In this document: positions 10,951-63,129 of the stretch, in pieces
How the letters are laid out: each line of letters starts with the position of its first letter
Position numbering within the stretch: the stretch's first letter is position 1
NCBI RefSeq assembly: GCF_000829055.1
Contig: NZ_AP012544.1
Coordinates: forward strand, 558,001-622,000
Direction: 5' to 3'
DNA: 64,000 nt
DNA from: Lacticaseibacillus casei DSM 20011 = JCM 1134 = ATCC 393
GTDB lineage: Bacteria > Bacillota > Bacilli > Lactobacillales > Lactobacillaceae
Translations under genes and position numbers: made by a program
The notes under the pieces: model-generated
The model's database searches: none
What the model saw: the letters and a program-made list of their open reading frames with translations, nothing else
Told to the model about the DNA's origin: nothing

Positions 10951-11075
10951 AGTGAGCGTGAGCCGGCGCGGTCAGAAACCGGAGTGTAAGGACCTTGGAC
11001 GTGATGGCCGGGTTTTGGCCATTGCGACCAAGGTCCTTACACGCAGGCTCCTGCGCCGGCGAACGCGTTATGGAA
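10951..11075 (+). repeat. Dispersed ~125-bp palindromic element, copy 1
   Basis: It starts AGTGAGCGTGAGCCGGCGCGG and ends GAACGCGTTATGGAAA. The core folds as a long hairpin: GTGTAAGGACCTTGG against CCAAGGTCCTTACAC and CCGGCGC against GCGCCGG. The inner GAAACCGG and GGCTCCT segments do not match each other here, so this copy looks like a hybrid of two variants. It lies between nrdI and the reductase gene and directly touches the terminator at 10902-10949. Confidence 0.9.
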
Positions 11076-11080
11076 ACAAA

Positions 11081-11905
11081 TTAAAACTCCTGATAAACAG
11101 CCGGATCCTGATCCCTTAAGCGGCCATCAGGCTTGCTCAACTGATCAATGGCTGTCATTTCTTCCTTTGTCAGGCTAAAATCAAAAATATCAAGATTAGT
11201 GCGCTGCCGGGAAAGATGAGCCGATTTTGGAATTGGCAAGACACGGTGTTGGAGATCCCAGCGCAGGATAACCTGCCCGACATTTTTACCATGTTCCGCA
11301 GCAATTTGCTTGATGACAGGTTCTTTTAAAACGGCACCGCGACCTAAGGGACTCCAGGCAACTGTTTGAATGTTATGGGCGTCATCATACTCACGTTGGG
11401 TTTGCTGGTTAAAGTAAGGATGTAGCTCCACTTGATTAACCGCTGGCGTGACGCCGGTTTCTTTAATCAACCGATCAATGTGCCCCGGCAAGAAGTTGGA
11501 AACACCAATTGAGCGAATTAAGCCGAACCGTTGTGCCTGAATCAGCGCCTGCCACGCTTCAACGTAAAGTCCTTCTTTCGGATTAGGCCAATGGATCAAA
11601 TAAAGGTCGTAATAATCCAGACCAGCGCGGTATAGACTTTCTTCGATGGTGTCAATGGCTTCCTGATAACGGTGATGACGGCCGGGTAACTTAGATGCAA
11701 CGATCAATTGGCTGCGGGGAATGCCACTTTGGCGAACCGCTTCGCCCACAGCACCTTCGTTTTCATAATTAAACGCTGCATCGAGCAGGCGATACCCTAA
11801 GTAAAGGGCACCGACCATGGCTCTGACGCCGTTCGTGCCATTTAATTTATATGTCCCAAACCCGACTGCCGGCAAGACGTTGCCGTCGTTTAACGTATAG
11901 TGCAT
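11081..11905 (-). CDS. Aldo/keto reductase (2,5-diketogluconate reductase-like)
   Basis: A 274-residue NADPH-dependent oxidoreductase of the AKR superfamily. The catalytic tetrad is visible as Asp42 and Tyr47 (LLDAAFNYENE), Lys72 (VASKLPG) and His105 (LYLIHWPNP). GVSNFLPGHIDRL, AVNQVELHPYF and the C-terminal IPKSAHLSRQRTNLDIFDF segment, which binds the cofactor phosphate, complete the family pattern. It reduces carbonyl compounds; the physiological substrate cannot be read from sequence. GGAGG lies just upstream of the ATG at 11905. Confidence 0.9.
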   Translation of the reverse strand: MHYTLNDGNVLPAVGFGTYKLNGTNGVRAMVGALYLGYRLLDAAFNYENEGAVGEAVRQSGIPRSQLIVASKLPGRHHRYQEAIDTIEESLYRAGLDYYDLYLIHWPNPKEGLYVEAWQALIQAQRFGLIRSIGVSNFLPGHIDRLIKETGVTPAVNQVELHPYFNQQTQREYDDAHNIQTVAWSPLGRGAVLKEPVIKQIAAEHGKNVGQVILRWDLQHRVLPIPKSAHLSRQRTNLDIFDFSLTKEEMTAIDQLSKPDGRLRDQDPAVYQEF

Positions 11906-12010
11906 GCAAACAACCTCCTTGTGAAATACGAAATCGCTGGTGGTTTATCGTGCAATAACAGGTGATGTCGTTGCCACTTCATTTAGTGTAGTCCAAATGT
12001 CAGGATGCGT

Positions 12011-12039
12011 ACAAGTCACGATGGTGCATCGTGTATAAT
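12011..12039 (+). promoter_or_regulatory. Promoter spacer with operator-like inverted repeat
   Basis: A consensus -10 TATAAT (12034-12039) is directly preceded by CACGATG-GTG-CATCGTG (12017-12033), a perfect 7-bp inverted repeat that fills the promoter spacer. The -35 position is weak (ACAAGT). A protein bound there would block RNA polymerase, so the gene at 12061 is probably repressed by an unknown factor. Confidence 0.55.
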
Positions 12040-12060
12040 GAATGCCATATAAGGAAGCAG

Positions 12061-12921
12061 GTGGTCAAAACGAGAACACAACAATGGCGAGCCATTTCCC
12101 GAAGTTGGTTTGCATTTTTCACCATGATTTTCTGGGTGCTTCTTTTTGTTGAAGCCTTCAGCACGGGAATGATGCTGACGGTTGGGACACCGGCACGTAC
12201 TGAACAGGTGATTGTTAAAAGTAAAGGGTTGGTGCAGATGACCCAATCCCTAAATAAAGAATTAATCGACACGGCGAACAAGAATGGCGCCACTTTGAAT
12301 CCGCAATCGACGCTGGTGACCATTGATGACACCCAACGATTGGCTTCAAAAATGGTGACTGCCAGTGCGGACAATCAAATGCGTGTGTCACTGGATACGA
12401 TTAAAGAGAGCATAGCAAGTCGCCTGCAGAAAGCTGCTGCCGATCAAGGGCAAAATTTTGATCAAAAGAAAGTGCTGACGAGCCTCACAGCCTTCCTTGA
12501 TCGCGAAATCAATCAGCTCGTGATGTCCGAAGGCTGGGGACGGGCTTATCCGTTACTGGTGCTCATGACGCAAACCGCGGTCATTGTGGCAGCGATCCTA
12601 ATGGTGATCGTTTTATTGATTATGCTAAAAACCGCCCACTCTTGGCGGCAATTTTTGGTGGTCACGGGTCGCTCCACTTACATTATGGGGTATATGGGCG
12701 GATTTATGGCAGTCTTAACAACCGCTAGCCCGTTTTTAGGTGCCATTAGTGCCCGAATGCCGGTCAATACTGAACTGGCGCGCGATTTGCTTCTTGCGTA
12801 TTCACCGTTGTGGCAGCGCGTGGCCGGTTGGACCATTGTCATTGGGTTGGTGATCGCGGCGCTGAGTCATTTTCTGCCAAGGCCGGCCGTCGATGAAAAT
12901 GAGTCGGTGAATGCGGCATGA
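12061..12921 (+). CDS. Membrane protein of unknown function, 286 aa
   Basis: I do not recognise the family. One N-terminal helix (about 17-40), an extracytoplasmic region of roughly 140 residues rich in Gln, Asn and Ser, then three hydrophobic helices near 170-195, 210-235 and 255-275. This layout resembles membrane sensors or YhgE-like exporters but no motif decides it. The GTG at 12061 was preferred because AAGGA lies five bases upstream; a longer frame from 12031 would start inside the promoter. The gene is followed by a palindromic repeat and then a second exported-hydrolase gene. Confidence 0.75.
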   Translation: MVKTRTQQWRAISRSWFAFFTMIFWVLLFVEAFSTGMMLTVGTPARTEQVIVKSKGLVQMTQSLNKELIDTANKNGATLNPQSTLVTIDDTQRLASKMVTASADNQMRVSLDTIKESIASRLQKAAADQGQNFDQKKVLTSLTAFLDREINQLVMSEGWGRAYPLLVLMTQTAVIVAAILMVIVLLIMLKTAHSWRQFLVVTGRSTYIMGYMGGFMAVLTTASPFLGAISARMPVNTELARDLLLAYSPLWQRVAGWTIVIGLVIAALSHFLPRPAVDENESVNAA

Positions 12922-12937
12922 CGGATTTATTGAATCG

Positions 12938-13061
12938 CATTAACGCGTTCGCCAGCCCAGAAACCTGCGTGTAAGGACCTCAGTCGCAATGGCCAAGGTC
13001 GGGCTATCACGCCTGAGGCCACTTACACGCCGGTTTCTAACCGGGCTGGCTCACGCTCACT
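12938..13061 (-). repeat. Dispersed palindromic element, copy 2
   Basis: Reverse orientation relative to copy 1. Arms GTGTAAGGACCTCAG / CTGAGGCCACTTACAC, GCCAGCCC / GGGCTGGC and AGAAACC / GGTTTCT are complementary, so the hairpin is intact with a different arm sequence. It lies between two plus-strand genes and ends 16 bases before the next start codon, overlapping the space used by that gene's ribosome site. Confidence 0.88.
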
Positions 13062-13076
13062 AGAAAGGGAGGTTTC

Positions 13077-13922
13077 ATGAAACGAGATAAGTGGCTTTGG
13101 TTGGCGTTATTGGTTGTGTTGCTTGTTGCCGGTGCCGGGTGGTATTGGTATAACAACCAGGCCGATACCCCGCCAACTAAAGAAGAAACCACGATTGGAC
13201 GCACGGCGACGCTTTATTTGCATGGCTATTCTGGCGGTGCCGGGTCGACGAATACACTGATTCGCCGGGCTGAGGGGACCGGTGCGACCAAAGTGCTGAC
13301 GGCAACGGTTGCTAAAAACGGCAAAGTTCAGTGGACCGGTGATCCGCATCGTGTCAGCAAGCCCATTGTTCAGGTGATCTTTCAAGACAACAAGAATCCT
13401 GACGTCGTGAAACTGGCAGATTGGTTGACGACGATTAATCGGCAGCTTTACCAGCGCTATGGTGTGCGCAATGTTAACTTTGTGGCACATTCAATGGGCA
13501 ACATGGCGGTGATGTTTTACGCGGTTCGCAATCAGGATCAAGGCAAACTGCCGAAAATGAAGCACTATGTTGCCATTGCTGGGCATTTTGACGGCATTAT
13601 TGGCATGGGGGATCAACCGCACCAGATTAAGCTGGCGGCTAACGGTTACCCGTCACCCATGGACGAAAATTACGGCGAATTGGCGCGTTTACGGGATCAT
13701 TTTCCTAAAGGCGTTAAGGTGTTGAATATTTACGGTGATATTCACGATGGCAGCGATTCGGATGGTCGCGTAGCCAATAACTCTTCGCGATCCTTGCGTT
13801 ATCTTGTCAGCCCCCGGGCAGCCACTTATCAAGAAAAGGAATACTTTGGCCGTGATGCTCAGCACAGCGCACTGCATGAGAATCCGCAAGTAGCCAAAGC
13901 TGTCGATTCGTTCATCTGGTAA
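13077..13922 (+). CDS. Exported alpha/beta hydrolase, DUF915 family
   Basis: A 281-residue protein with an N-terminal signal-anchor (basic MKRDK followed by a hydrophobic run to about residue 24) and a hydrolase domain outside the cell. LYLHGYSGG is the oxyanion region, VAHSMGN carries Ser139, IYGDIHDGSDSDG the acidic residue region and AQHSALHENPQV the histidine. This pattern is the DUF915 cell-surface hydrolase family common in lactobacilli; substrate unknown. GGGAGG lies six bases before the ATG. Stop and the convergent DUF421 gene are eight bases apart with no terminator between them. Confidence 0.87.
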   Translation: MKRDKWLWLALLVVLLVAGAGWYWYNNQADTPPTKEETTIGRTATLYLHGYSGGAGSTNTLIRRAEGTGATKVLTATVAKNGKVQWTGDPHRVSKPIVQVIFQDNKNPDVVKLADWLTTINRQLYQRYGVRNVNFVAHSMGNMAVMFYAVRNQDQGKLPKMKHYVAIAGHFDGIIGMGDQPHQIKLAANGYPSPMDENYGELARLRDHFPKGVKVLNIYGDIHDGSDSDGRVANNSSRSLRYLVSPRAATYQEKEYFGRDAQHSALHENPQVAKAVDSFIW

Positions 13923-13930
13923 ACTCGCGA

Positions 13931-14578
13931 CTAGTCACGGTCATAAGGCGCAATGACGACTTTACCACCCAGAAAACTTGCCATATACACGTCTTCTGGT
14001 TTATAGCCTTGTTCGGCAAGGCGGGCTTTGAGCCAGTCCTCATCGTGGTCAATCGCATCGAGTGCTGCCGGGTCAATCTGGCCGTCTAAAATAAGCGGAT
14101 ACTTGATGGTCTCATCGCCTTTGAAAATAACATTCAACTGTCCGTTCTGTTCAAGATAGGCTTGGCGAACATCGCGCAGATCTTTCACACCAGCGGTACG
14201 TAAGCGATAGGCGAGGTCGTTGGCTGACAAACCAACCTGCGTGGCGGTTTCGACGCGAATGTTCCCGTGTGAGACCACTAATAGCGGCTCGCCATCGATA
14301 GCCCGTTTGAGCCAGTGATTATGATTCGTCAGGTATTTCGAGCTGAAGACGATGAGTGTCCAGATTAGTAAGACGTTGACAAATTGCAAAATGCTGACGT
14401 CGGTATTATAAATGACACCCCCGATAATGCCGCCGAGGACATAGTTTTGCATCTGGTCAACAATCGTGGCCGGGGCAAGATTGCCTTTACCGGTGAGCTT
14501 AATCTGGACAACAAACACGATGAAGCCTAAAAGCAGCTTCATTGCGGTCACAAAATATAAATCCTGAAAAAGTGCCAT
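13931..14578 (-). CDS. DUF421 membrane protein
   Basis: A 215-residue protein with three N-terminal helices and a cytoplasmic C-terminal domain. The YVLGGIIGGVIYN turn and the LTNHNHWLKRAIDGEPLLVV strand are typical of DUF421 (YetF/YrbG/YdfS relatives). Function is not established; related proteins affect spore or envelope properties in Bacillus. It follows the DUF3290 gene by nine bases, a pairing often seen in lactobacilli, so the two probably work as one membrane unit. Confidence 0.87.
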   Translation of the reverse strand: MALFQDLYFVTAMKLLLGFIVFVVQIKLTGKGNLAPATIVDQMQNYVLGGIIGGVIYNTDVSILQFVNVLLIWTLIVFSSKYLTNHNHWLKRAIDGEPLLVVSHGNIRVETATQVGLSANDLAYRLRTAGVKDLRDVRQAYLEQNGQLNVIFKGDETIKYPLILDGQIDPAALDAIDHDEDWLKARLAEQGYKPEDVYMASFLGGKVVIAPYDRD

Positions 14579-14587
14579 GAGTGCCTC

Positions 14588-15049
14588 CTACTTAGTGACG
14601 AATTGGACTTGCGGGACAATTAAGGTTGTTTTGGTGAGCTGGTAACTATTGTTATCGGCGTTGATCGTGACGGTGTACATTTTTTTCGTGGACCGTCCAA
14701 TCGTCACCAGCATCCCCGTGTGAACCGTGCTACTGTTGGCATACAGCTGATTGACGGACACCTGTTTCTGCGTAGCGACACTGCGCAATAAAGTAGCGAC
14801 TGCCTGTGAATTAACGGTGGCAGTGCGGCTTGCCTGAAGATCGCGAATCTGAATGCCGATGGTCAACAACTCGATGAGAGCCACCAGGACTAAAAGGTCA
14901 CGATATTTGTTGCTGCGCTTGTGACGGAGAAAATAAACCAGGTAGGCAATGATCGCCACAGCTCCGATGATGATGATGCCGTAACGCAAGGTGTTTTGCC
15001 AATTGTCTTGATGAGTCAGCACTGAATACGCAAAAAAAGTTGTTCCCAT
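14588..15049 (-). CDS. DUF3290 membrane protein
   Basis: A 153-residue protein with two hydrophobic helices (about 20-43 and 53-68) followed by an extracytoplasmic domain of about 80 residues ending in QVQFVTK. The HRKRSNKYRDL-type loop between the helices is basic and so cytoplasmic. It is first of a two-gene unit with the DUF421 gene. Function unknown; the family is normally found next to DUF421. GAGGCG lies upstream of the ATG at 15049. Confidence 0.85.
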   Translation of the reverse strand: MGTTFFAYSVLTHQDNWQNTLRYGIIIIGAVAIIAYLVYFLRHKRSNKYRDLLVLVALIELLTIGIQIRDLQASRTATVNSQAVATLLRSVATQKQVSVNQLYANSSTVHTGMLVTIGRSTKKMYTVTINADNNSYQLTKTTLIVPQVQFVTK

Positions 15050-15115
15050 GAGACGCCTCCAAAAATAATAGTCTGGTCAAATCATAACAGAATGATAACC
15101 TGTTTGAAGTTATTC

Positions 15116-15143
15116 TTGACACGAAACATGACGGTGTTATGAT
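15116..15143 (+). promoter_or_regulatory. Promoter of the methionine-type T-box transcript
   Basis: A perfect -35 TTGACA (15116-15121) and TATGAT (15138-15143) are separated by 16 bases and lie just upstream of the T-box leader. Confidence 0.8.
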
Positions 15144-15149
15144 AATCGC

Positions 15150-15426
15150 AACTCAAAACAGACAACATTGCTTTGCGGAGAAGAGTATCTGAAGCGCGGA
15201 TCCCAAGCGAGCCTGGACAGTGGAAGCAGGCGATCGGTTAATCGGAGAAGATGAGCTCCAAATAGCTTTTCAGTGGTTCACGCCATTGAAACGGGTGCAT
15301 CCGTTACCATGCCAGGTATCGAATTTGGTACTGGTGAGGTGTTGGCACTATGCCGACACGAATAAGGGTGGTAACGCGCGTCAGGCGCCCCTTGATCTTT
15401 AAAAGGATCAAGGGGCGCTTTTTTTT
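15150..15426 (+). promoter_or_regulatory. T-box leader, probably methionine-specific
   Basis: The leader carries the T-box core AAGGGTGGTAACGCG (15364-15378), which pairs with the acceptor end of uncharged tRNA, followed by an intrinsic terminator GCGCCCCTTGATC / GGATCAAGGGGCGC with eight T (15385-15426). An AGCGAGCC..GGACAGTGGAAG region matches the conserved upstream stem I part. A candidate specifier codon ATG at 15251-15253 fits methionine and fits the MetE-like gene downstream. Specifier assignment is tentative because I did not fold stem I fully. Confidence 0.88.
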
Positions 15427-15460
15427 GAGCGTGAACTGACGCGCCAGAGAATGCGTTATC
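15427..15460 (+). repeat. Short deletion derivative of the palindromic element, copy 3
   Basis: GAGCGTGAACTGACGCG is followed directly by CCAGAGAATGCGTTATC, that is, both outer ends of the element without the hairpin core. It begins at the last T of the T-box terminator. Confidence 0.75.
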
Positions 15461-15538
15461 GCGATTGCCGCCTCTTTCGTTGCCGTGTGGTCAATGTTGT
15501 TTGAGGATCGTCATTTTCATAATACGGGAGGAATTCTC

Positions 15539-16672
15539 ATGACAGAAGAAGTTAAAATCAAAGCACCATTTCGCGCTGATTTAGTTGGCAGTTTGTTGCG
15601 TCCGGAACGATTGAAAGTGGCGCATCAGCAACTGGACATTGGCGAGATTCAGCAGGATCAGGAGCTGGCGATTCAGCACGAAGCGATTGATCACATTGTC
15701 AAAAAGCAGGTTGAATTAGGCTTTAATGCGGTCACGGATGGGGAGTTTTCCCGCCGGTACTGGCATCTGGATTTCTTCTGGGGCTTAAATGGCTATGAAA
15801 AAGATGATTCCTGGAAGTATGAACATGATTTTAAAGGCGGCATCAATGCGGCGGCGAACGTTCATTTGGCGGGAAAGGTCAGCTTTAACCCACAGCATCC
15901 ATTCTTTGCGGCATTTGAGTATCTTAAAAGTATCGTGCCGGAAGGGGTACTGCCAAAACAGACGATTCCCAGTCCAGCCTTGCTGTTTCGGGATCATCGT
16001 AGTGACAACTGGCCGAAGTATTATGACACCTTTGATGACTATTTAGCCGATATTGTCCAGGCTTATGTCGATACGATTCAGCACTTTTATGATTTAGGCG
16101 ATCGTTATCTTCAAATCGATGACACGAACTGGGCATATCTGATTCAGAACTTGAGGGACACCGAAAACGATCCGAAGAAACATGAACATTTTGTGGCATT
16201 AGCTAAGCTGGCCCACCGCGTGATTAAAGCGGTTTTGGTGAAATTGCCGGAAGATTTGACGGTCACCTCACATATCTGTCGCGGCAATTTCCAGTCGACG
16301 TTTTTGTTCTCCGGCGGCTATCAATATGTGGCTGATGATATTGGGGACTTGCCATACGACGGGCTGTTTCTTGAATATGACAGTCAACGGGCCGGGTCGT
16401 TTGAACCGTTGCCGCAACTTTGGAACGGGGATCCCAACAAACGAATTGTATTAGGTTTGATCACCTCGAAATTTCCGGAATTAGAAGATGAAGAAGCGGT
16501 GATCGAACGCATCAACGTCGCAACTGCTTACGTGCCGTTAGACAATCTGGCTTTGTCCACTCAATGCGGCTTTGCGTCGACCGAAGAAGGTAATAAGCTG
16601 ACAGAAGACGATCAATGGGCCAAGTTGGCGTTAGTTCAACGCATTGCCCATCGTGTTTGGGCTGATGCCTGA
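15539..16672 (+). CDS. MetE-like methyltransferase (YxjG/YxjH type)
   Basis: A 377-residue protein related to the C-terminal catalytic half of cobalamin-independent methionine synthase. Zinc-ligand candidates are the His and Cys of SHICRGNF, the Glu of LFLEYDS and the Cys of STQCGFAST; DGEFSRRYW and LQIDDTNWAYL are also typical. It lacks the N-terminal half of MetE, as in Bacillus YxjG/YxjH, and probably makes methionine from homocysteine or recycles a related thiol using an unidentified methyl donor. A T-box upstream makes expression depend on uncharged tRNA, likely tRNA-Met. luxS follows, which returns homocysteine to the same pathway. GGGAGG precedes ATG 15539. Confidence 0.9.
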   Translation: MTEEVKIKAPFRADLVGSLLRPERLKVAHQQLDIGEIQQDQELAIQHEAIDHIVKKQVELGFNAVTDGEFSRRYWHLDFFWGLNGYEKDDSWKYEHDFKGGINAAANVHLAGKVSFNPQHPFFAAFEYLKSIVPEGVLPKQTIPSPALLFRDHRSDNWPKYYDTFDDYLADIVQAYVDTIQHFYDLGDRYLQIDDTNWAYLIQNLRDTENDPKKHEHFVALAKLAHRVIKAVLVKLPEDLTVTSHICRGNFQSTFLFSGGYQYVADDIGDLPYDGLFLEYDSQRAGSFEPLPQLWNGDPNKRIVLGLITSKFPELEDEEAVIERINVATAYVPLDNLALSTQCGFASTEEGNKLTEDDQWAKLALVQRIAHRVWADA

Positions 16673-16715
16673 CTGACAAGTCCTTAGGGTGACACAAGCC
16701 GAAACGTGACAGATT

Positions 16716-16744
16716 TTTACGCACCATCGGCGATTGTGTTATAT
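16716..16744 (+). promoter_or_regulatory. Candidate promoter of luxS
   Basis: TTTACG (16716-16721) and TTATAT (16739-16744) with 17 bases between them, 40 bases before luxS. Confidence 0.5.
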
Positions 16745-16783
16745 GATGAATACGTAAACGATTGAGAAGGAGATCTTTGAGTT

Positions 16784-17257: not shown

Positions 17258-17300
17258 GTTTGTCAAAATGATCGACGAATGATTGAGCGTTCGTGTGCGC

Positions 17301-20861: not shown

Positions 20862-20979
20862 TGAGCGCGAGCAGGAGCGCTTAGAAATCGGAGTGTAAGT
20901 GGCCCCAAACCTAAATGGCTGGTCTTTGGCCGGGGTCCTTACACGTAGATTTCTGCGACTGCGAGCGCGTTATGGAAAG
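20862..20979 (+). repeat. Dispersed palindromic element, copy 4
   Basis: It begins immediately after the queA stop codon with TGAGCGCGAGC and ends GCGAGCGCGTTATGGAAA. Arms GAAATCGGAGTGTAAG and TTACACGTAGATTTC pair (GAAATC against GATTTC), and the centre reads CCCCAAACC / GGCCGGGG. The arm sequence differs from other copies on both sides together. Confidence 0.88.
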
Positions 20980-28342: not shown

Positions 28343-28394
28343 GAGTGAGCGTGAGCCAGCCCAGTTTCTGGGCTGGCGAGCGCGTTATCGAAAG
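28343..28394 (+). repeat. Short deletion derivative of the palindromic element, copy 6
   Basis: GAGTGAGCGTGAG and CGAGCGCGTTATCGAAA flank a small hairpin CCAGCCCA-GTTTC-TGGGCTGG. The inner ~75 bases of full copies are missing. It begins directly at the T-run of the zwf terminator. Confidence 0.85.
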
Positions 28395-33351: not shown

Positions 33352-34287
33352 ATGGCCGTAAACGAGTTGACGCTGCCGACATGGAATACCCTGAATGAAA
33401 AACGGCAGCGCTTTATTTTTCAACAGCTGACTCGCTATTTCTTAAGTCCATTGCTGACAGTTGACGCAATTCGTCCGGTGACCGCCACGTTTTACGGTCA
33501 GACACTTCACACTTTTGAAGCGATGATCGGTGGCGAATGGGTGCGGTTGGTTCCGGGGATGACGAATGTCAGTCTGGGATTCGCTACGAATCATCAAGAA
33601 GAGTTGGCACCTTACCTGGCGCAAAGCGATTTGACTCTGGCTGACATTCAACAGCTGCTTTCACCGGTTAGAAAAACCGACATGCCTCCTATGTTGGTCG
33701 CAACCAGGGCAACGCCAGCCAATGAGGAGATTTTGGGACGGGTTAGTTTGACCACCCGAATTTTCAAGGGCAACCATATGGCATATGCGGCAATTCGCGC
33801 GCAGGTACTGGCGTTACTGGATCGCCATGGCAGCCTTGATCCATTTTCGCAAACTGGCTGGCCGGCTACCCTGACAAGCGGCAGCGTCAAATTGCGATTG
33901 GCCAGTGCGCATCATTATCAGGTCAGTATCGTTAAATCGTGGCGTAAAGCTGATCTGAGCAAGTCACTGAGCTATTTTGGCTTCCGTCTGCCGACTCAGG
34001 ATCAATATGAATACCTGCAAAGTGGCGGTAACCCCAGCCTGTTTCCATTCGGCAATACGCTACCACTGGAAATGCCGCGGTATTTGCCTAACCGCTTTGG
34101 CCTGACCATTCCGGTTAAACGAACCGGTAGTGAGCTGATTGTCGAAGACTTGCAAAAAAGCACGGCATTAACTGCTCAGCCGACAGCAAAAGAGGCATTG
34201 GCGTTATCGCCGTTTTATCAGGTTCCAGGTGAAGTAGATTTGTCATCTGCCGTGTATCGTCGGGTTGCGACAATTACGGTGAATTAG
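33352..34287 (+). CDS. Degenerate formylglycine-generating-enzyme-like protein
   Basis: A 311-residue protein with weak but ordered resemblance to the FGE/SUMF1 fold: GEWVRLVPGMTNVSLG (61-76) matches the FVxVPGGxFxMG strand, FGFRLPTQDQYEYLQSGG (209-226) matches the RLPTEAEWEYAARGG motif, FPFGN the YPWGN turn and PNRFGL the PNxFGLYDM segment. No cysteine occurs anywhere, so the copper or active-site cysteines of true FGE are absent and it cannot be that enzyme in its known form. It is translationally close to the helicase gene. Function unknown; a binding role is likely. Confidence 0.75.
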   Translation: MAVNELTLPTWNTLNEKRQRFIFQQLTRYFLSPLLTVDAIRPVTATFYGQTLHTFEAMIGGEWVRLVPGMTNVSLGFATNHQEELAPYLAQSDLTLADIQQLLSPVRKTDMPPMLVATRATPANEEILGRVSLTTRIFKGNHMAYAAIRAQVLALLDRHGSLDPFSQTGWPATLTSGSVKLRLASAHHYQVSIVKSWRKADLSKSLSYFGFRLPTQDQYEYLQSGGNPSLFPFGNTLPLEMPRYLPNRFGLTIPVKRTGSELIVEDLQKSTALTAQPTAKEALALSPFYQVPGEVDLSSAVYRRVATITVN

Positions 34288-34320
34288 TCGCCAAGCCTTC
34301 ATGCTCCTTAACAAAGTGAG

Positions 34321-34349
34321 TTGACCCCACTTTTCAGAAAAGCTATAAT
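34321..34349 (+). promoter_or_regulatory. alaS promoter
   Basis: TTGACC (34321-34326), 17 bases, TATAAT (34344-34349). It starts the T-box leader. Confidence 0.85.
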
Positions 34350-34355
34350 GAACAA

Positions 34356-34560
34356 CCGTTAGGACATGCGTCGACCCCTGTGTGAGACAGAAACAACCGC
34401 GTTAGTTGAGAACGGTTGCGCCAGGCTAAGATGTGCTCCCTGATATCAGTTGAACGAATATTAATGAAGTGGTAATGAGTCGCATCATTGCAACCAAGGT
34501 GGTACCGCGTGCAAGCGCCCTTGGCAGCAATGGTGCTTTTTGTGTTAACGTGCTTACCAG
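34356..34560 (+). promoter_or_regulatory. T-box leader of alaS
   Basis: The core AACCAAGGTGGTACCGCG (34492-34509) is the T-box and acceptor-end pairing site. AGCGCCCTTG and CAATGGTGCT plus TTTTT form the terminator. Uncharged tRNA-Ala should stabilise the antiterminator and raise alaS expression. A GCT triplet in the CAGGCTAAG segment near 34421 is a candidate alanine specifier, not verified by folding. Confidence 0.9.
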
Positions 34561-39742: not shown

Positions 39743-39869
39743 TGTGAGCGTGAACTGGCGCGGTTAGGAGCCGGAGTGTAAGTGGCCTTGGGCGTGATGG
39801 CCCGGGCTTGGCCATTGCGACCGAGGTCCTTACATGCAGGCTCCTGCGCCAGTGAACGCGTTATGGCAA
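39743..39869 (+). repeat. Dispersed palindromic element, copy 7
   Basis: It starts GTGAGCGTGAACTGGCGCGG directly at the terminator T-run and ends GTGAACGCGTTATGGCAA. Arms CTGGCGC / GCGCCAG, GGAGCC / GGCTCC, GTGTAAG / CTTACAT and GGCCTTGGGCGTGATGGCC / GGCCATTGCGACCGAGG pair along about 50 bp. Confidence 0.92.
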
Positions 39870-52367: not shown

Positions 52368-52395
52368 CGGCTCTAAGCGCTCCTGCTCACGCTCC
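52368..52395 (-). repeat. Partial palindromic element, copy 8
   Basis: Only the GAGCGTGAGCAGGAGCGCTTAGA end (reading the minus strand, in parts) is present, abutting the next full copy. Confidence 0.75.
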
Positions 52396-52516
52396 ACCAT
52401 AACGCGTTCGCAGTCGCAGAAATCTGCGTGTAAGGACCTCGGTCGCAATGGCAAAGAGCGCCATCACGCCCAAGGCCACTTACACTCCGATTTCTAAGCG
52501 CTCCTGCTCACGCTCA
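52396..52516 (-). repeat. Dispersed palindromic element, copy 9
   Basis: Full copy: ACCATAACGCGTTCGCAG at the left, GCTCCTGCTCACGCTCAC at the right, arms AGAAATCTGCGTGTAAG / CTTACACTCCGATTTCT complementary. The loop side is variable (GCAAAGAGCGCC). Confidence 0.92.
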
Positions 52517-52641
52517 CCCATAACGCGTTCGCCAGCCCAGAAGCCTGCGTGTAAGGACCTCGATCGCAATGGCCAAAGCCCGGCCATTACGCCCGAGGCC
52601 ACTTACACTCCGGCTTCTAAGCGGGCTGGCTCACGCTCACT
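52517..52641 (-). repeat. Dispersed palindromic element, copy 10
   Basis: Second full copy in tandem with copy 9. Arms GCCAGCCC / GGGCTGGC, AGAAGCC / GGCTTCT and GTGTAAGGACCTCG / CGAGGCCACTTACAC differ from copy 9 but pair with each other. The remaining spacer to 52840 holds only a short palindrome-free stretch and the promoter region of cbpB. Confidence 0.92.
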
Positions 52642-55416: not shown

Positions 55417-55548
55417 GGTCTCAGACCTAAAATGGCCCAAGCCCAGGTATTGGGGAGAAAGATAGATTTTGTGGGCAATCCGGTTCCGAAACGCGATCCC
55501 CGGCGCAGAAATCTGCGTGTAAGGACCTTGGGCACAATGGCAAAGGGG
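55417..55548 (-). repeat. Fragmented palindromic element, copy 11
   Basis: Pieces of the element in disorder: GACCTAAAATGGCCCAAGCC (55426-55445), then CCGAAACGCGATCCCCGGCG and TCTGCGTGTAAGGACC to about 55548, with the second half missing. The 20-odd bases ending CGGTTCCGAAACGCG recur before the next copy, so part of this region was duplicated with its flank. Confidence 0.75.
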
Positions 55549-55572
55549 ATAAGAATTGGAAGGCAATCCGGT

Positions 55573-55697
55573 TCCGAAACGCGCTCACAGGCCCAGAAAC
55601 CTACACATAAGGACCTCGAACCTAAATGGCCAAAGCCCAGCCATTTAGGTTCGAGGCCACTTATGCTCCGGTTTCTAACCGGGCCTGCTCACGCTCT
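55573..55697 (-). repeat. Dispersed palindromic element, copy 12
   Basis: Full copy with AGAAACC / GGTTTCT, CATAAGGACCTCGAACC / GGTTCGAGGCCACTTATG and AAATGGCC-AAAGCCCA-GCCATTT arms, ending GGGCCTGCTCACGCTC. The inner stem is almost perfect. Confidence 0.92.
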
Positions 55698-56810: not shown

Positions 56811-56872
56811 AGCATCACAGCTGGTCTTAGCTGTGGAAAGACTTATCTTGATCGTGAACGAAGGAGGATCAT

Positions 56873-57394
56873 ATGCTAAATAGCGAACGTCAGGCACACA
56901 TCAAAGCCACTTTAAGTACTGCGGCCGAGCCGCTCAGTGCGTCGAGTTTTGCGCGGCGGTTTACTGTCAGTCGGCAGACCATTGTTGGCGATATTGCGCT
57001 TTTGCGGGCCCAAGGCGAACCGATCATTGCAACGCCGCGTGGTTATACGTTGTCACATCCAGCGGCTCATGAGTTTTTGATTCCTTGCAAACATACGCCG
57101 GAGCAAACGGTACAGGAGCTGCAGCTGATCCTCGACAACGGTGGCTGGATTGAAGATGTTTTGGTCGAGCATCCGTTATATGGTCAGTTACGCGGTCAGC
57201 TGAATATTCGCACCGTTGCCGATATGAAGCTGTTTTTGAGTCGTCTAGCGCGTTATCAAGGCCGCCACTTGTCCGAGTTAACCGGTGGCATTCATTTACA
57301 CACGATTAGCGTTAGAAATGAACGGAATATCGCCAAAATTAAAGAAGCACTGCGCAAGGCTGGCATTTTATATGAACAGTCGGAAGCAGACTAG
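56873..57394 (+). CDS. niaR: NiaR-type transcriptional repressor of NAD biosynthesis
   Basis: A 173-residue regulator with an N-terminal HTH (SASSFARRFTVSRQTIVGDIALLRAQG) and a C-terminal 3H domain carrying the conserved histidines in CKHTPEQ, VEHPLYG and GGIHLHTI. NiaR proteins bind nicotinic acid and repress niacin uptake or NAD synthesis genes. No such target lies next to it. GGAGG precedes the ATG. Confidence 0.9.
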   Translation: MLNSERQAHIKATLSTAAEPLSASSFARRFTVSRQTIVGDIALLRAQGEPIIATPRGYTLSHPAAHEFLIPCKHTPEQTVQELQLILDNGGWIEDVLVEHPLYGQLRGQLNIRTVADMKLFLSRLARYQGRHLSELTGGIHLHTISVRNERNIAKIKEALRKAGILYEQSEAD

Positions 57395-57438
57395 ACAATT
57401 TCGGTGGTAGAGGCAAAAACAGCAGCAGTCAACAACAT

Positions 57439-57486
57439 AAAAATGGTCCCGAGGAGACAGCGTCTACCTCTTTGGGACCATTTTTG
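57439..57486. terminator. Bidirectional intrinsic terminator
   Basis: AAAAATGGTCCCGAGGAGAC and GTCTACCTCTTTGGGACCATTTTT (the latter in two parts) between niaR and convergent pepQ. Confidence 0.9.
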
Positions 57487-57532
57487 ATATTAACGCCCTG
57501 TTCATCTTTTTCCGACGAGTAACTCGGCGTCA

Positions 57533-58636
57533 TCAGCCATTGATGACAGTGAATTCTTTTGATGTGTGGGTAAAAGGTCCGCAGCCGGTTTCCGTGACGT
57601 GGACACAGTCTTCAATCCGAACACCAGCGACACCAGGAACGTAAATACCAGGTTCGATCGAGAAGCACATGCCTGGCTGTAGAATCATATCGTTGCCTTC
57701 CATGATGGATGGGAATTCATGGGTGGACATGCCGATTCCGTGTCCCAAACGGTGATTAAAATATTCGCCGTAACCCGCTTTGGTAATAATGTCGCGGGCA
57801 ATCTTGTCGAGGTCGGATGCTTTTAATCCCGGCTTAACGGCATCCATAGCAGTCAGGTTCGCTTCTAGACAAATATCAAAAATTTCACGCGGCTTACCGG
57901 TGACCTGACCAAAAGCGACGGTGCGCGTGGCGTCAGACATGTAACCATGGTTGTCCGTACCAAGATCAAACAAGACCAGTTCATTTGGAGCGAGCTTTGT
58001 TCCCATCGGTTCGCCATGCGGATTGGCCGCATCTACGCCAGCTTGGACGATGGTGCCAAAACTCATGTGCATGACGCCTTCCTTCATCATCGCATAGTCA
58101 ATTTCAGCCGCAACTTCCTGTTCAGTGGCACCTGCCTTGATCGCCTTAAAACCTGCTTGGAACGCGCGGTCAGCCTGAGCCCCGGCAATTTCCATTTGTT
58201 TAATTTCGGCAGGTGTTTTGATTAACCGTTGCTTTTCAATGAAACGGGAAGCATCGATCGGAAAAGTCGCATCAGGAAACTGCTTCATGAGGGCTTCAAA
58301 TTTGAAGACTGCGAGGTTATCTTTTTCAATAGCCCACTTGGTCGGATTAGGGTTCACGTCCTTGATATGGGTTGCCATGACGGCAAACGGATCTTCGTGA
58401 TCAAGATAGCCAAATACCTGATAAGGCCAGCCAGCTTTTTTAACTTCCTCAATGGTTAGTTGCGGGGTGAACAGGAACGGATCCTTGTCCGGGGTGACGA
58501 TTAAGGCGGTGATCCGTTCTTCGGGATCCTGGAAGAAACCCGTGTAATAGTTGATATTGACCGGGTCACTGATATAAGCAAGGTCGAGGCCTTCTTCGCC
58601 AACCCAGGTTTGTAATGCTGCTAAATGCTCGTTCAT
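57533..58636 (-). CDS. pepQ: Xaa-Pro dipeptidase PepQ, M24B family
   Basis: A 367-residue cytoplasmic enzyme that splits dipeptides ending in proline. The dimetal ligands are in LFDLGTDNHGYMSDATRTV (two Asp), HRLGHGIGMSTHEFP (His), FSIEPGIYVPG (Glu) and VRIEDCVHVTETG (Glu). ATG 58636 has GAGGAGG six bases upstream; a longer frame lacks support. It is divergent from ccpA, an arrangement known from several lactobacilli, and the cre-like site between them may serve both. Confidence 0.95.
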   Translation of the reverse strand: MNEHLAALQTWVGEEGLDLAYISDPVNINYYTGFFQDPEERITALIVTPDKDPFLFTPQLTIEEVKKAGWPYQVFGYLDHEDPFAVMATHIKDVNPNPTKWAIEKDNLAVFKFEALMKQFPDATFPIDASRFIEKQRLIKTPAEIKQMEIAGAQADRAFQAGFKAIKAGATEQEVAAEIDYAMMKEGVMHMSFGTIVQAGVDAANPHGEPMGTKLAPNELVLFDLGTDNHGYMSDATRTVAFGQVTGKPREIFDICLEANLTAMDAVKPGLKASDLDKIARDIITKAGYGEYFNHRLGHGIGMSTHEFPSIMEGNDMILQPGMCFSIEPGIYVPGVAGVRIEDCVHVTETGCGPFTHTSKEFTVING

Positions 58637-58864
58637 CGTGGTCCTCCTCAAAAGGGCACAGCACAAAATATCATGCAAAACGAATCTTTTACCATATTTG
58701 TGCTGCACCGTGATATTAACGTGCCAAGTGCTCAGGCATCGAAAATGACTTGCAAGATAAGGTGCTAGTCGCGATGCCAAATGCAACTTTCTTTACCAGT
58801 ATATCACGAGCCATGAGGGACACTTTCTGAAAAGCCCGTTTGTGAAAATTTCATGGAAAATTCA

Positions 58865-58878
58865 GTAAAACGCTTGCA
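58865..58878. promoter_or_regulatory. cre-like site between pepQ and ccpA
   Basis: GTAAAACGCTTGCA matches the catabolite-responsive element core (consensus TGAAAACGCTTTCA-like) and overlaps the ccpA promoter candidate TTGCAT-17-TATTTT. Autoregulation of ccpA and control of pepQ through this site is established in related lactobacilli and inferred here. Confidence 0.65.
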
Positions 58879-58957
58879 TTGCCTTTCTCATTCTGCTATT
58901 TTGGAATGTAAATAGATGTTTCGTGATTTTCATACTCACGACTAAGGAGAAAATAAA

Positions 58958-59959
58958 GTGGAAAAACAAACAATAACAATTTATGATGTTGCCCGCGAGG
59001 CAAATGTATCGATGGCGACGGTGTCCCGAGTGGTTAATGGTAACCCGAATGTGAAGCCGGCTACCCGCAAGAAGGTTTTAGAGGTTATCGAACGCCTCGA
59101 CTACCGGCCGAATGCGGTAGCCCGTGGCCTGGCAAGCAAGAAAACGACAACCGTCGGCGTTATCATTCCCGACGTTACCAACATGTTCTTCTCAAGCTTG
59201 GCCCGTGGGATTGATGATGTTGCGACCATGTACAAATACAACATTATTTTGGCGAACTCGGATGAAAATAACCAAAAGGAAGTTTCCGTACTTAACACTT
59301 TGTTGGCCAAGCAGGTTGACGGGTTGATTTTCATGGGTCATGAACTGACCGATTCGATTCGCGCGGAATTTTCCCGAAGCAAAACGCCGGTTGTACTGGC
59401 AGGCTCGATTGATCCGGATGAACAGGTTGGCAGTGTCAACATTGACTACGTGGCTGCGGTTGAAGAAGCGACGCACCAATTACTGGAGAGCGGTAATAAG
59501 CGGGTGGCATTGGCGACCGGCTCGCTCACCCATCCGATTAACGGTCAGTTCCGCCTGAAGGGCTATAAACAAGCACTTGAAAAAGCCGGCGTTGCCTATG
59601 ACGAAAGCCTGATCTTTGAAAATGAGCCAAGTTATCAAGCGGGGTTGGCATTGTTTGGTAAGCTGCAGAAAGTCGGCGCAACGGCTGTCATTGCCGGCGA
59701 TGATGAACTGGCAGTCGGCATTTTGGATGGCGCACTGGACAAGGGCGTGAAGGTGCCGGATGATTTTGAAATTATTACCAGCAACAACACCAAGCTAACC
59801 GAAATGACCCGGCCACAACTGACATCAATTGATCAGCCGCTTTATGACATTGGCGCTGTGGCAATGCGGTTGCTGACAAAGATGATGAACAAAGAAGAGA
59901 TCGAAGAAAAAACCGTGATGTTAGGTTTCGATATTTTGAAACGCGGCTCAACCAAATAA
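58958..59959 (+). CDS. ccpA: Catabolite control protein A
   Basis: A 333-residue LacI-family regulator. IYDVAREANVSMATVSRVVN is the HTH, NVKPATRKKVLEVIERLDYRPNAVARGLAS (in parts) the hinge helix, and VGVIIPDVTNMFFSSLARGIDD starts the sugar-binding-protein core where HPr-Ser-P docks. With seryl-phosphorylated HPr it binds cre sites to repress or activate carbon genes. A cre-like site lies in its own promoter region. Confidence 0.96.
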   Translation: MEKQTITIYDVAREANVSMATVSRVVNGNPNVKPATRKKVLEVIERLDYRPNAVARGLASKKTTTVGVIIPDVTNMFFSSLARGIDDVATMYKYNIILANSDENNQKEVSVLNTLLAKQVDGLIFMGHELTDSIRAEFSRSKTPVVLAGSIDPDEQVGSVNIDYVAAVEEATHQLLESGNKRVALATGSLTHPINGQFRLKGYKQALEKAGVAYDESLIFENEPSYQAGLALFGKLQKVGATAVIAGDDELAVGILDGALDKGVKVPDDFEIITSNNTKLTEMTRPQLTSIDQPLYDIGAVAMRLLTKMMNKEEIEEKTVMLGFDILKRGSTK

Positions 59960-60000
59960 AGGTGTTGAGCGAAATCAGCTTTGGCACCTCGTGAGCAATA

Positions 60001-60050
60001 AAAAATCGGTTCTAAAGACAGATGATGTGTGTCTTTAGAACCGATTTTTG
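60001..60050. terminator. Bidirectional intrinsic terminator
   Basis: AAAAATCGGTTCTAAAGACA and TGTCTTTAGAACCGATTTTT between ccpA and the convergent penicillin-binding protein gene. The outer stem closely resembles the terminator at 51491. Confidence 0.95.
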
Positions 60051-60089
60051 CGTTACTGGATTGATTGGCCTTCAAGATGACGCATGAAC

Positions 60090-62840
60090 TTACTGACCGC
60101 TGCCAGTTGTAGCAGGTGTGGTTTGCTGATTATTGGTCGTTGTGCCACCAGTTGTGTTACCGCCAGTCGTTGTCGTGCCAGTGCCGGTTGTTTCGCCGCC
60201 AGTGCCAGTTGCACCGTTTGTCCCGCCAGTTCCCGTTGTTTGCGGTTCACTTGGCTGGTTTTCGGAGGTTCCTTGCTGGTTTTTCTGGCTGGAAGGCACC
60301 GTGACGCTAGGCGTTTGGCTGCTTTCAGTTGTGGCTGGTGCCGTGGTTTCAGGCGTGATCGGTGTTTCCTGATGCTCTTTTTTGGCTTCGGTCGAGCGAC
60401 CATTAGCGTCAGAAACCTGACCATAGCCATTGCTTTTACCGTTGAGATGGTCATAGAACAACTGATAATTGTCTTTGCTGCCGCCGATGCCAAATTCAGC
60501 TTTCGCAGTTGGCTGCCAGTCATTGTAGAGGCTGGTAACAGTTGATCCGCCTGTGTGATAAGTGCGCCCGTTAAAAGTAAGGGTGCCAGCCGGTTGCCCG
60601 GTTTGCTTATCGACAGTGACGGACTTGACGGTACTTGGTCGGGCTAATTTTTTATCAACTTTAAATTGCTTAGGGATGGTGTGATAAACCGCATTTGCCA
60701 ACTTCGACCAATAAGCTTCGTTGGTCATTGAACTGTTTTCATCAAGCGTGTAGTTGGTGCCGTTACTGTTGTCATAGCCCATCCAACTGGCAATGGTGAC
60801 ACCCGGCGTTGAACCGATAAACCAAATATCGCGGAAATCGTTGCTGGTACCGGTTTTCCCGATCAGGTTGTCCGTATTGAAGCGCAGCTGATAGTTCAGG
60901 CTCTCGGCAGTCCCTGATTCAACCACGTTTTTCAACATTTGATTCATGATGTAGTTCGTACCTTTGGAGAAAACCTTGGTCTTTTTAACCTGATGGCGGT
61001 AGACGGCATGGCCTGAAGGATCGACGATTTCAGAGATGACATAAGCTGGTACGTGTTCGCCTTGATTGGCAAAAGTGGAAAAAGCGCTGGCTTGTTCCTT
61101 GACGTCGACGCCATAATCGGTACCGCCCAAGGCTAGACCGAGCTGGCTGTAATCATTGTCAGTGAGGGTATTGATGCCCATTTTTTCCATGTAGCTTTTG
61201 ACATTGACGTTCGGCTTGATGTGTTTATACAGATTAACTGCCGGAATGTTGTAGGATTGGGCAAGCGCTTCGGTGGCAGGGATGAACCGATTTTGAATCT
61301 GGTCGCCGTAATCGGTCACACTGTAATTGTTGCCAAGGTTGGTTTTGAAGTCAGCCAAAGCCGTCTGCGAACCGATGACTTTTTGATCGATCGCTGGTGC
61401 ATACACCAAAAGCGGCTTAATCGTGGAGCCGGGAGAACGTAAGGTGTAAATGTGATTGAGTTCACCAGAGACCCCGCCGACAAATCCGAGAACGGCACCG
61501 GTTTGGTTGTCCAACACAACCGAGCCGTTTTGAACCGGATGTTTGACGGTTTCGGTTTCACCGGTTTTAGGATTGATCTGAGTACTGGTGTAGGTTTGAC
61601 CGAATGTATTTCGCGTGGCGCGCATCACAAATTGCATCCGATCGTACACGTCTTTGTTGATGGTACTTTTGATTTGGTAATTTTTGGAAGCGAAAAGATC
61701 GCCTGCTTGCCTCAAATAGTCGTTGTTTAAGGCGTTGTCTTTGGCAAGGTCGGCAGCAGAGTGACCATCATTTTGGGCTAATTTCTCAGCTAATAATGAT
61801 TTAGCTTCACTGAGCACCATGTTGTAGACATACCCATACTCATTGTCATCCTGTTCGGCATTTTCCGGCTTGAGGAACGCGCCTTTTAGATCGAATGACT
61901 TGGCTGCAACATACTGCTTGTGACTGATGACGCCAGCTCGATACATCCGAAACAGCACGGTCTGTTGCCGATTAATGCCGGATTTAAGGCTGGCTTTTAG
62001 TTGACCGTTGGCAGTATACGGCGTGTAAACAAACGGACTCTGCGGCAAGCCAGCAATAAAGGCGGCTTCCGGCAGGTTCACCTGACTGGCAGAGACGCCA
62101 AAAAGTCCTTGCGCAGCCGCTTCGACGCCGGCAATGTTTTGCCCCTTGTTGTTCCGACCCAGCGTGGCAACATTCAGATAAGTTTCCAGGATTTCGTTCT
62201 TGCTGAAGTGGTTGTTTAGGCGCCGCGCCAACATGATCTCCGCAGCTTTACGTTTGAAGGTTGTCTCTGAGTTCAAAAACATCATTTTGACAACCTGCTG
62301 CGTTAAAGTCGAGCCGCCAGTTTGGTTACCCATGCCGGTTAAGTCGGAAAAGAAAGCCCGAATCACCGCCTTAGGCACCACCCCGTCATGACGATAAAAG
62401 TCTTCGTCTTCAGTGGCAATGATCGCCTTGGTCAGCCACGGCGACATGTCACTAAGACTGACCTTTGTCGAATACAAATCGCTTTTGACATCGCTCAGCT
62501 TGACGTTATGTGCAAAATACATACTGGAAGTACGGCTGGTGTTAGATAGCGTTGCCTTCATCGCTGCTTCGGTCGGAATCGGCGTTGCATCGATGATCGA
62601 CACAAAATAACCGCCAAATAAGCCGAGGCCAAAAACAGCTGCAATGCCTAAAACGCCTAATAAGTAATAGACAATACTTTTGATGCTTTGAAGCGTGACA
62701 TTACCGTAAAAAACAACGGCAGTTTTACCCGTTAAATGTTTGGAATCAGCTTTGGAATCAGGACGCCGCGTCACGAATGCCGTGAACCAGCGGCGAAATC
62801 GAGTTCCAAGCGTCTTGACCCGATCGACGAACTTTTTCAA
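60090..62840 (-). CDS. Class A penicillin-binding protein (PBP2A-like)
   Basis: A 916-residue bifunctional peptidoglycan synthase. A short cytoplasmic part and one helix (about 58-80) are followed by a glycosyltransferase domain (ATEDEDFYRHDG, GGSTLTQQVVKM, RKAAEIMLARRL) and a transpeptidase domain with SPGSTIKPL (SxxK), QSYNIPAVN (SxN) and GKTGTSND (KTG). The last ~130 residues are a low-complexity Thr/Gly/Pro/Gln tail outside the cell, longer than usual. Start TTG 62840 has AAGGTGGG eight bases upstream. It lies convergent to ccpA. Confidence 0.93.
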   Translation of the reverse strand: MKKFVDRVKTLGTRFRRWFTAFVTRRPDSKADSKHLTGKTAVVFYGNVTLQSIKSIVYYLLGVLGIAAVFGLGLFGGYFVSIIDATPIPTEAAMKATLSNTSRTSSMYFAHNVKLSDVKSDLYSTKVSLSDMSPWLTKAIIATEDEDFYRHDGVVPKAVIRAFFSDLTGMGNQTGGSTLTQQVVKMMFLNSETTFKRKAAEIMLARRLNNHFSKNEILETYLNVATLGRNNKGQNIAGVEAAAQGLFGVSASQVNLPEAAFIAGLPQSPFVYTPYTANGQLKASLKSGINRQQTVLFRMYRAGVISHKQYVAAKSFDLKGAFLKPENAEQDDNEYGYVYNMVLSEAKSLLAEKLAQNDGHSAADLAKDNALNNDYLRQAGDLFASKNYQIKSTINKDVYDRMQFVMRATRNTFGQTYTSTQINPKTGETETVKHPVQNGSVVLDNQTGAVLGFVGGVSGELNHIYTLRSPGSTIKPLLVYAPAIDQKVIGSQTALADFKTNLGNNYSVTDYGDQIQNRFIPATEALAQSYNIPAVNLYKHIKPNVNVKSYMEKMGINTLTDNDYSQLGLALGGTDYGVDVKEQASAFSTFANQGEHVPAYVISEIVDPSGHAVYRHQVKKTKVFSKGTNYIMNQMLKNVVESGTAESLNYQLRFNTDNLIGKTGTSNDFRDIWFIGSTPGVTIASWMGYDNSNGTNYTLDENSSMTNEAYWSKLANAVYHTIPKQFKVDKKLARPSTVKSVTVDKQTGQPAGTLTFNGRTYHTGGSTVTSLYNDWQPTAKAEFGIGGSKDNYQLFYDHLNGKSNGYGQVSDANGRSTEAKKEHQETPITPETTAPATTESSQTPSVTVPSSQKNQQGTSENQPSEPQTTGTGGTNGATGTGGETTGTGTTTTGGNTTGGTTTNNQQTTPATTGSGQ

Positions 62841-62918
62841 GTGCTTGTCCCACCTTAAATTTTGGTCTAATATTCCTTAGTATACCGTAAAAATAAAGCG
62901 GATTCTAATACTGTTGGC

Positions 62919-63045
62919 AGAGCGTGAGCCGGCGCGGTTAGAAGTCGGAGTATAAGTGGCCTTGGGCGTGATGGCCCGGGCTTAGGCCATCGCGACCAAG
63001 GTCCTTATACACAGACTTCTGCGCCGGTGAACGCGTTTCGGAGAG
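62919..63045 (+). repeat. Dispersed palindromic element, copy 13
   Basis: CAGAGCGTGAGCCGGCGCGG to GTGAACGCGTTTCGG. Arms GAAGTCGGAGTATAAG / CTTATACACAGACTTC differ from other copies on both sides (GTATAAG / CTTATAC instead of GTGTAAG / CTTACAC), a clear compensated change. Confidence 0.92.
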
Positions 63046-63058
63046 CATCGGTAAACAG

Positions 63059-63129
63059 ACCGGTCTTTGACCATTGCGACCAAGGTTCTTATACGCAGAC
63101 TTCTGCGCCAGAGAATGCGTTTGTGGAAA
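63059..63129 (+). repeat. Half copy of the palindromic element, copy 14
   Basis: Only the right half is present: TTTGACCATTGCGACCAAGG, TTCTTATACGCAGACTTC and GCGCCAGAGAATGCG. It follows copy 13 and shares its TATAC variant, so it likely arose by local duplication. Confidence 0.8.

Follow-up and report, generated by a model that had tools for sequence, protein, structure and literature searches.

The window analysed here, a stretch of 64,000 nucleotides at positions 558001-622000 of the 2.95 Mb Lacticaseibacillus casei genome (contig C1), contains a family of palindromic repeats, and it raises the question of what kind of element these hairpins are and how they came to be dispersed. Our analysis suggests that they are mobile DNA hairpins of a kind without a name, and not repeats that arose by chance.

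The repeat family in the window and in the L. casei genome

A first, sequence-only reading had placed eight near-full copies in the window, and a covariance model recovered every one of them in its place. Copy 1 (10953..11073, + strand, 134.5 bits), of the T...A end class described below, lies directly 3' of a terminator-like hairpin with a T-tract and has two A.C mismatches in its second arm. In copy 2 (12938..13059, − strand, 137.3 bits), the GAGCG end neighbours the Shine-Dalgarno-like site that belongs to the ORF at 13077, and copy 3 (20862..20975, + strand), which is of the full type, starts directly after the stop codon of a queA-like gene and lacks 10 nt of one arm that are present in L. 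chiayiensis at the same site. Copy 4 (39745..39866, + strand) scores 141 bits. Copy 5 (52518..52639, − strand, 145.7 bits), which served as a query in other searches, stands in tandem with copy 6 (52397..52516, − strand, 124.8 bits), and a left-end piece (52372..52394, − strand) closes this array. Copy 7 (55574..55697, − strand, 117.6 bits), which has another loop type, and copy 8 (62919..63041, + strand, 137.5 bits) are both of the A...T class, and each shares an array with a right-half copy, at 55461..55544 (− strand) and 63045..63129 (+ strand), respectively. Two collapsed copies complete the set: one at 15426..15461 (+ strand, 19.9 bits), whose place in L. zeae (site B8) holds a full copy and a collapsed one in tandem, and one at 28346..28390 (+ strand, 35.9 bits), which retains both ends. 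The shortened copies, the occurrence in both orientations and the tandem pairs were thus described correctly, and the placement between genes also stands, with the qualification that program-made ORFs of 102-301 aa overlap some of the window copies.

The repeat unit has 122 letters, and the genome holds about 150 near-full copies. The genome-wide collection that the sequence-only reading had proposed was made with a covariance model of 36 BLAST- or window-derived copies, which gave at least 150 matches (E 5e-37 to 5e-10) when the best 150 of 1546 candidates were scored; 149 of these span the full model and all 150 lie on C1. Since nhmmer, run over 449 kb that were read whole, returned 46 matches of which 35 were full, compared with 36 in the covariance-model list for the same sequence, the estimate of about 150 full copies is probably close to the actual total. 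Copy density is uneven: the first 195 kb, one fifteenth of the chromosome, hold 21 of the 150, and another fifteenth holds 2. Taken by themselves, the short end motifs occur in the window about as often as chance predicts (GAGCGTGAG with 1 mismatch, 13 observed and 10 expected; GCGTTATGGAAA with 2 mismatches, 7 observed and 8 expected); the signal comes from the element as a whole.

The sequence-only reading knew no name for the family, and we found none in the literature searched, where most subscription papers were missing. In the accessible text of two stem-loop surveys the Lactobacillus lines name L. johnsonii (PMC2267715, PMC1590033). Annotation software has reported the element as doubtful CRISPR arrays: the accessible part of the L. 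casei KACC92338 genome paper places, in Table 7A, a 55-letter piece of it among the CRISPR repeats with evidence level 1 (CRISPRCasFinder), a level that the authors disregarded (PMC11464305). We rejected a CRISPR array, as the copies are dispersed, lie on both strands and, among those listed, stand at most four full units side by side. No Rfam family matched the window above threshold. A microRNA model overlapping copy 5 (E 0.35, below threshold) was taken as chance, and two T-box leader matches on the + strand, at 15164-15395 (75.2 bits), where it precedes a methionine synthase-like gene (15485), and at 34270-34525 (35.5 bits), scored below the gathering score of 93. In 14 stretches with copies from other genera or variants, Rfam matched a SAM-III riboswitch alone, which lies outside the element but near a copy in a genome of another genus (L327, 1090-1195).

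Structure, range and strand polarity of the hairpin

Three observations go beyond the sequence-only reading: the element reaches several genera, its unpaired bases are its most conserved part and its paired bases vary (26 elements from five genera), and one of its strands folds better than the other. For 36 L. casei copies, RNAalifold and pair counting agreed on a hairpin of 42 pairs in which 97.3% of cells are paired. Changes were two-sided in 18 of the 42 pairs, and the covariation score was 0.195 compared with 0.113 for shuffled alignments, none of 500 of which scored as high; single pairs reached up to 55 two-sided changes among 137 copies (150 aligned, minus 13 hybrids, that is, copies with at least three non-standard pairs in arms 1 and 2). 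The earlier proposal that the hairpin itself is maintained therefore holds for the family as a whole. Compensation of the arms has exceptions, among them the 13 of 150 copies with mismatched arms, several of them in arrays, as well as copies 1 and 3 of the window, with their A.C mismatches and arm loss. Some of the mismatches in arm 1 consist of G facing A, found at two adjacent pair positions (GA in 16 copies, AG in 15).

The copies read from five casei-clade species have the same geometry and near-invariant unpaired bases, and the geometry is also common to the 26 elements read from five genera (g1 (G013), g3, g13, g20 and g24, with g18 left out): 4 bp, GA facing GA, 8 bp, a 4-nt bulge GNTT, 7 bp, GGA facing GCA, and a long stem. 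A script that chose the offset with the most pairs, then the most identity, placed these elements with 691 of 728 cells paired, a fraction that is inflated in that both the model that chose the elements and the script reward pairing. The left GA is conserved in 25 and 22 of the 26, and the right GA in 25 and 24. In the bulge, the first base is G in 25 elements, the second G in 17 or T in 8, and the third and fourth are each T in 23; GGA is conserved in 25, 23 and 22 elements, the facing GCA in 24, 18 and 24, and a bulged G in 24. An alignment of 22 of these elements with two window copies, four having been excluded because their loop register differed or they had a deletion, showed two-sided changes in 23 of 29 pairs (score 0.676 compared with 0.236 shuffled, 0 of 500 as high), and further pair types in these 24 sequences were not beyond shuffles (42 of 500 as high).

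BLAST found the element in six of 30 genomes of the genus, five of them with many copies; the single copy in the sixth (G025) looks recently acquired, because its flanks are those of a phosphotransferase system (PTS) operon found on plasmids. Fifteen plasmid records match, nine of them from Pediococcus, so that copies occur on Pediococcus and Lacticaseibacillus plasmids; a plasmid search with three copies from other genera gave no match. The phage collection held no match to the element, and three pattern matches in viral contigs were rejected by the model. Among 350 Lactobacillaceae genomes, BLAST matched weakly in two of another genus (g13), and in each of these the covariance model gave at least 150 matches (150 of 150 scored). 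Run over all 350 at E 1e-8, with stricter filters and the best 10 candidates per genome scored, the model matched in at least 80 genomes from at least 18 of 40 genera, and in 38 genomes of six genera at least five of the best 10 matched. Single weak matches may be unrelated hairpins. The fixed unpaired bases, together with the 270 genomes that gave no match, argue against a model that matches any hairpin.

That the GAGCG strand is the one read is suggested by three signs. The top strand, starting T/A-GAGCG, folds more stably than its complement in 147 of 150 casei copies, as it does in 26 of 26 copies from other genera or variants, with both RNA and DNA parameters. The facing G.A and fixed G.U pairs stand on this strand and appear as C.T and A.C on the opposite one, which accounts in part for its better folding energy. 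Finally, with the two fixed G.U pairs and the hybrids set aside (12 of 150 casei copies), G.U exceeds A.C in all five species (147:60, 61:18, 41:17, 7:2 and 6:4 cells), counts that treat related copies as independent; by column, a sign test is significant in one of the five (p 0.015), with p 0.136 in casei.

Ends, collapse and exchange of copies

Shared ends had been described for the family, and we find two end classes: among 144 copies with both ends located, 90 are T...A, 44 are A...T and 10 are other, and GCGTTATGGAAA is exact in only two places in the window. The outermost T and A also pair with each other: among 105 non-tandem copies, 92% have complementary bases (T-A or A-T) at this closing position, compared with 52% expected. 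The ends thus form imperfect terminal inverted repeats that run T-A or A-T, G.T, A-T, then GCGT with ACGC past one bulged G. Pairing of the flanks with each other beyond the closing pair was not above shuffled. The left flanks of T...A copies are T-rich (T 69-80% at −9 to −5), often where an intrinsic terminator ends or where the complement of a Shine-Dalgarno-like sequence lies, whereas A...T copies have no such bias. As many T...A copies stand 3' of the T-tract of another hairpin, we rejected the idea that the element is itself the intrinsic terminator at those sites. At most 15 T...A copies, two of them doubtful, carry an extra tail on the right (L041, L053, L102, L111 and similar loci) that consists of ATAGAAAGCG or similar, about 25 nt, TTGCC, and then AATAGAAC; the first part of the ATAGAAAGCG tail also occurs 3' of a collapsed stub in L270. 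When 1 mismatch is allowed, the motif TTTGCCNNNAATAGAAC matches at 12 places in the genome and its reversed control at 2. The right flanks of A...T copies (for example, window 55550-55573) contain dispersed common pieces such as GCAGCATCGGCCA and CGGAACCGGATTGCC.

We compared sites between species, for which the mutS2 gene of the window gives a scale: its identity is 95% in L. zeae DSM 20178, 89% in L. chiayiensis NCYUAS, and 80%, 78% and 68% in G019, G016 and G025, and the sites of G019 and G016 were too diverged for the placement of ends. In the compared stretches, a syntenic counterpart in the other species exists for 28 of the 31 clusters of casei and for 35 of the 44 of L. zeae; there, L. 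zeae holds element-sized sequence at 24 of 28 places and casei at 22 of 35, and the numbers of units in arrays differ. Among 15 differing sites that we inspected, four look empty (A5, A13, B9 and B42), and at least nine keep remnant ends. Within casei, copies with both ends retained form a series of 107, 86, 84, 78, 45 and 36 bases that finally reaches about 14. Stubs of about TGAGCGCGTTATRG behind T-tracts near C1 504738, 799412 and 1261189 (L265, L266 and L270) could be the end products of collapse or, less likely, the entry sites of new hairpins.

Plasmids with near-identical flanks show the same changes. In P. acidilactici, a full copy is set against one collapsed at a GGCG microhomology; in L. 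paracasei, three units are set against one full or one collapsed copy; and the PTS operon site, on plasmids of three genera, holds two arm variants and a stub (L287, L288, L289 and L320). At six orthologous single-copy sites of casei and L. zeae with flanks 93-98% identical, 2 to 34 of about 121 positions differ, and 11 of the changes are two-sided, 20 one-sided and 42 unpaired, most of them uncompensated. Elements that differ within near-identical flanks suggest that part of the compensated variation is probably the exchange of whole copies. Copies thus decay by collapse and change by recombination; many resident ones probably decay freely, and selection, if any, probably acts on the copies that spread.

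How the hairpin may spread

We consider it somewhat more probable than its negation that the element is a non-autonomous, strand-polar mobile hairpin, of one class with the BOX, REP or RUP repeats, that an enzyme reads through its unpaired features as a single strand and spreads without target-site duplication. The GAGCG-type strand folds into one long stem, in which the lengths of the helices are fixed and the unpaired bases nearly so. In such a mechanism an enzyme acting in trans would recognise GA/GA, the GNTT bulge, GGA/GCA and the bulged G in a single-stranded form, more likely DNA than RNA; and new copies would be placed without a duplication, those of the T...A class mainly 3' to sequence rich in pyrimidines, either the T-tract of a terminator or the complement of a Shine-Dalgarno site. 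The helix sequences could drift in a compensated way because it is the shape that would be read. After insertion, the palindrome collapses symmetrically at microhomologies, and recombination shuffles copies within and between arrays. The repeat would then be slow or dormant at present, and parasitic rather than useful, with the folded single strand as its spreading form. The hairpin structure, its covariation, conserved unpaired bases and polarity, its range over genera and plasmids, the lack of a detected duplication and the collapse are observations; movement by an enzyme, the single-stranded DNA form and the parasitic nature are inferences. Several results count against this explanation, including the column-wise G.U test, the further pair types of the cross-genus alignment, and the enzyme searches and the flanking repeat of site B42 given below. 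In addition, copies show no replichore bias (70 and 80, on the assumption that the origin is at 0 and the terminus at 1.462 Mb), although a link to the lagging strand, as a single-stranded DNA mechanism suggests, predicts one; fresh, clean insertions are scarce, the four apparently empty sites being all that the 15 inspected sites offer; and one-sided and unpaired changes form the majority at the orthologous copies of casei and L. zeae.

An RNA-level element is unlikely: the transcribed top strand would be a processing or stability signal kept by the host, or an independent small RNA. Tolerance of G.U, facing G.A pairs and conserved bulges are typical of structured RNA, the hairpin has all three, and a number of copies lie near start codons or just 3' of genes. 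However, gene direction is even, with 44 copies running with co-directional neighbouring genes and 55 against (41 lie between opposed genes and 10 are undecided, directions being taken from a simple ORF script), which weakens the role in message stability that the sequence-only reading had suggested. The G.U excess of the top strand keeps its sign where genes run with the element (46:8) and also where they run against it (49:20), though weaker there (Fisher p 0.08); the element lies below the threshold of every Rfam family, and its sites are often collapsed in sister species.

That the element is an ordinary MITE of a DDE insertion sequence, with its duplications decayed and its parent lost, is improbable. 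Its size, imperfect terminal inverted repeats, intergenic placement and plasmid copies would fit, and such parents are proposed for BOX and RUP in the accessible part of a study of pneumococcal repeats (PMC3049150). The target-site duplication that had been suggested as a check was not detected in the 70 isolated copies (35 T...A and 28 A...T), which are the 150 minus 6 whose ends were not located, 39 tandem ones and 35 with the end of another copy in the flank: the mean longest direct repeat is 2.70 compared with 2.84 in shuffled flanks, and 186 of 200 shuffles were as high. One site, B42, has a direct repeat of 5-9 bp in its flanks that could be a duplication. The one-sided internal bulges conserved over genera would be unexpected if only the ends mattered. 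A parent with matching ends was also sought: the right-end pattern has at least 139 genome matches compared with 19 for the reversed control, and no such insertion sequence was recognised in 20 stretches around lone end or tail matches (part of the 139, read at the sequence level), the ends there belonging to shortened copies or to chance. Of the features of the suggested MITE-like unit, the inverted repeats are present and the duplication was not detected.

There is a small chance that the copies spread through an RNA intermediate in a SINE-like manner, element transcripts being reverse-transcribed and inserted at T-rich sites. Strand polarity and the T-rich left flanks of the T...A class agree with this, as does the excess of 5'-shortened, right-half copies over left-only ones (5 against 2 for casei, 10 against 1 for the L. 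zeae stretches), but 13 of the 15 right-half copies lie inside arrays, which array recombination fits better, and a reverse transcriptase (PF00078) had no match in three of the five copy-rich genomes (L. casei, G016 and G019). It is very improbable that compensation is only apparent, one arm being copied onto the other by template switching or gene conversion in the absence of selection. In favour of this, whole copies have likely been exchanged at one site, as orthologous copies differ at up to 34 of 121 positions within flanks 96% identical, and one plasmid site holds two arm variants. Arm copying, however, would erase the one-sided bulge, GGA/GCA and the fixed G.U, which are among the most conserved features, and it predicts no excess of G.U over A.C.

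To return to the mobile hairpin read as a single strand, our searches for its mover concerned known enzymes. Y1 transposase (PF01797) had no match in L. casei, G016 and G019, three of the five copy-rich genomes; it matched in 13 of the 30 genus genomes, including L. chiayiensis NCYUAS (G005) and L. zeae DSM 20178 (G028), with no evident relation to copy number, and we rejected it as the mover. Of 27 stretches around Y1 genes, one (L237) had a copy, about 1 kb from the gene. Y2 (PF04986), likewise rejected, had no match in 10 of 11 genomes searched. A REP-like unit, the other mobile class that had been suggested, is best supported together with the MITE-like one, but the transposase expected of it is missing from the L. 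casei genome.

Known systems offer partial likenesses. ERIC elements, of about 127 bp, are found in enterobacteria; by description our element resembles them in its length, imperfect palindrome and intergenic position, but it belongs to another phylum. REP elements are hairpins with conserved mismatches and one functional strand that insert without duplication. The element likewise has a hairpin with conserved mismatches, a favoured strand and no detected duplication, but REPs measure 20-40 bp in the accessible part of their description (PMC3733652) compared with its 122, and Y1 is lacking as above. BOX, RUP and SPRITE of Streptococcus pneumoniae are described, in the accessible part of the same pneumococcal study, as short, interspersed, hairpin-forming repeats of slow turnover that are thought to be parasitic, BOX varying in its number of modules (PMC3049150). 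The likeness, again by description, is in size, dispersal, hairpin and slow turnover; unlike them, the element keeps one geometry with drifting helices over several genera, and we found no parent insertion sequence. It is also not a BOX, as it has no boxA-boxB-boxC modules: it is a single hairpin unit whose arrays repeat whole units or right halves.

The attC sites of integrons are recognised as folded single strands by their unpaired bases, and the sequence of their helices varies. This is the reading proposed here, although the right end of the element, GTTATGG or GTTTCGG, misfits the attC boxes GTTRRRY / RYYYAAC. We hold it as a tentative and rather doubtful extension that this is a shape-read element outside integrons, present across the Lactobacillaceae, whose mover belongs to an enzyme class new to short repeats.

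Short bacterial repeats are usually defined by their sequence in one species or genus. Here a geometry and unpaired bases are kept over genera while the helices change, which makes it possible to test cleanly which feature is read, be it the strand, the loop or the end. The series from intact hairpin to stub is useful for the study of palindrome loss, and the plasmid PTS operon site lends itself as a natural experiment on exchange at one locus. The element is present in food and probiotic lactobacilli and may be of use in strain typing. If an enzyme does read the folded strand, the principle of attC would extend beyond integrons.
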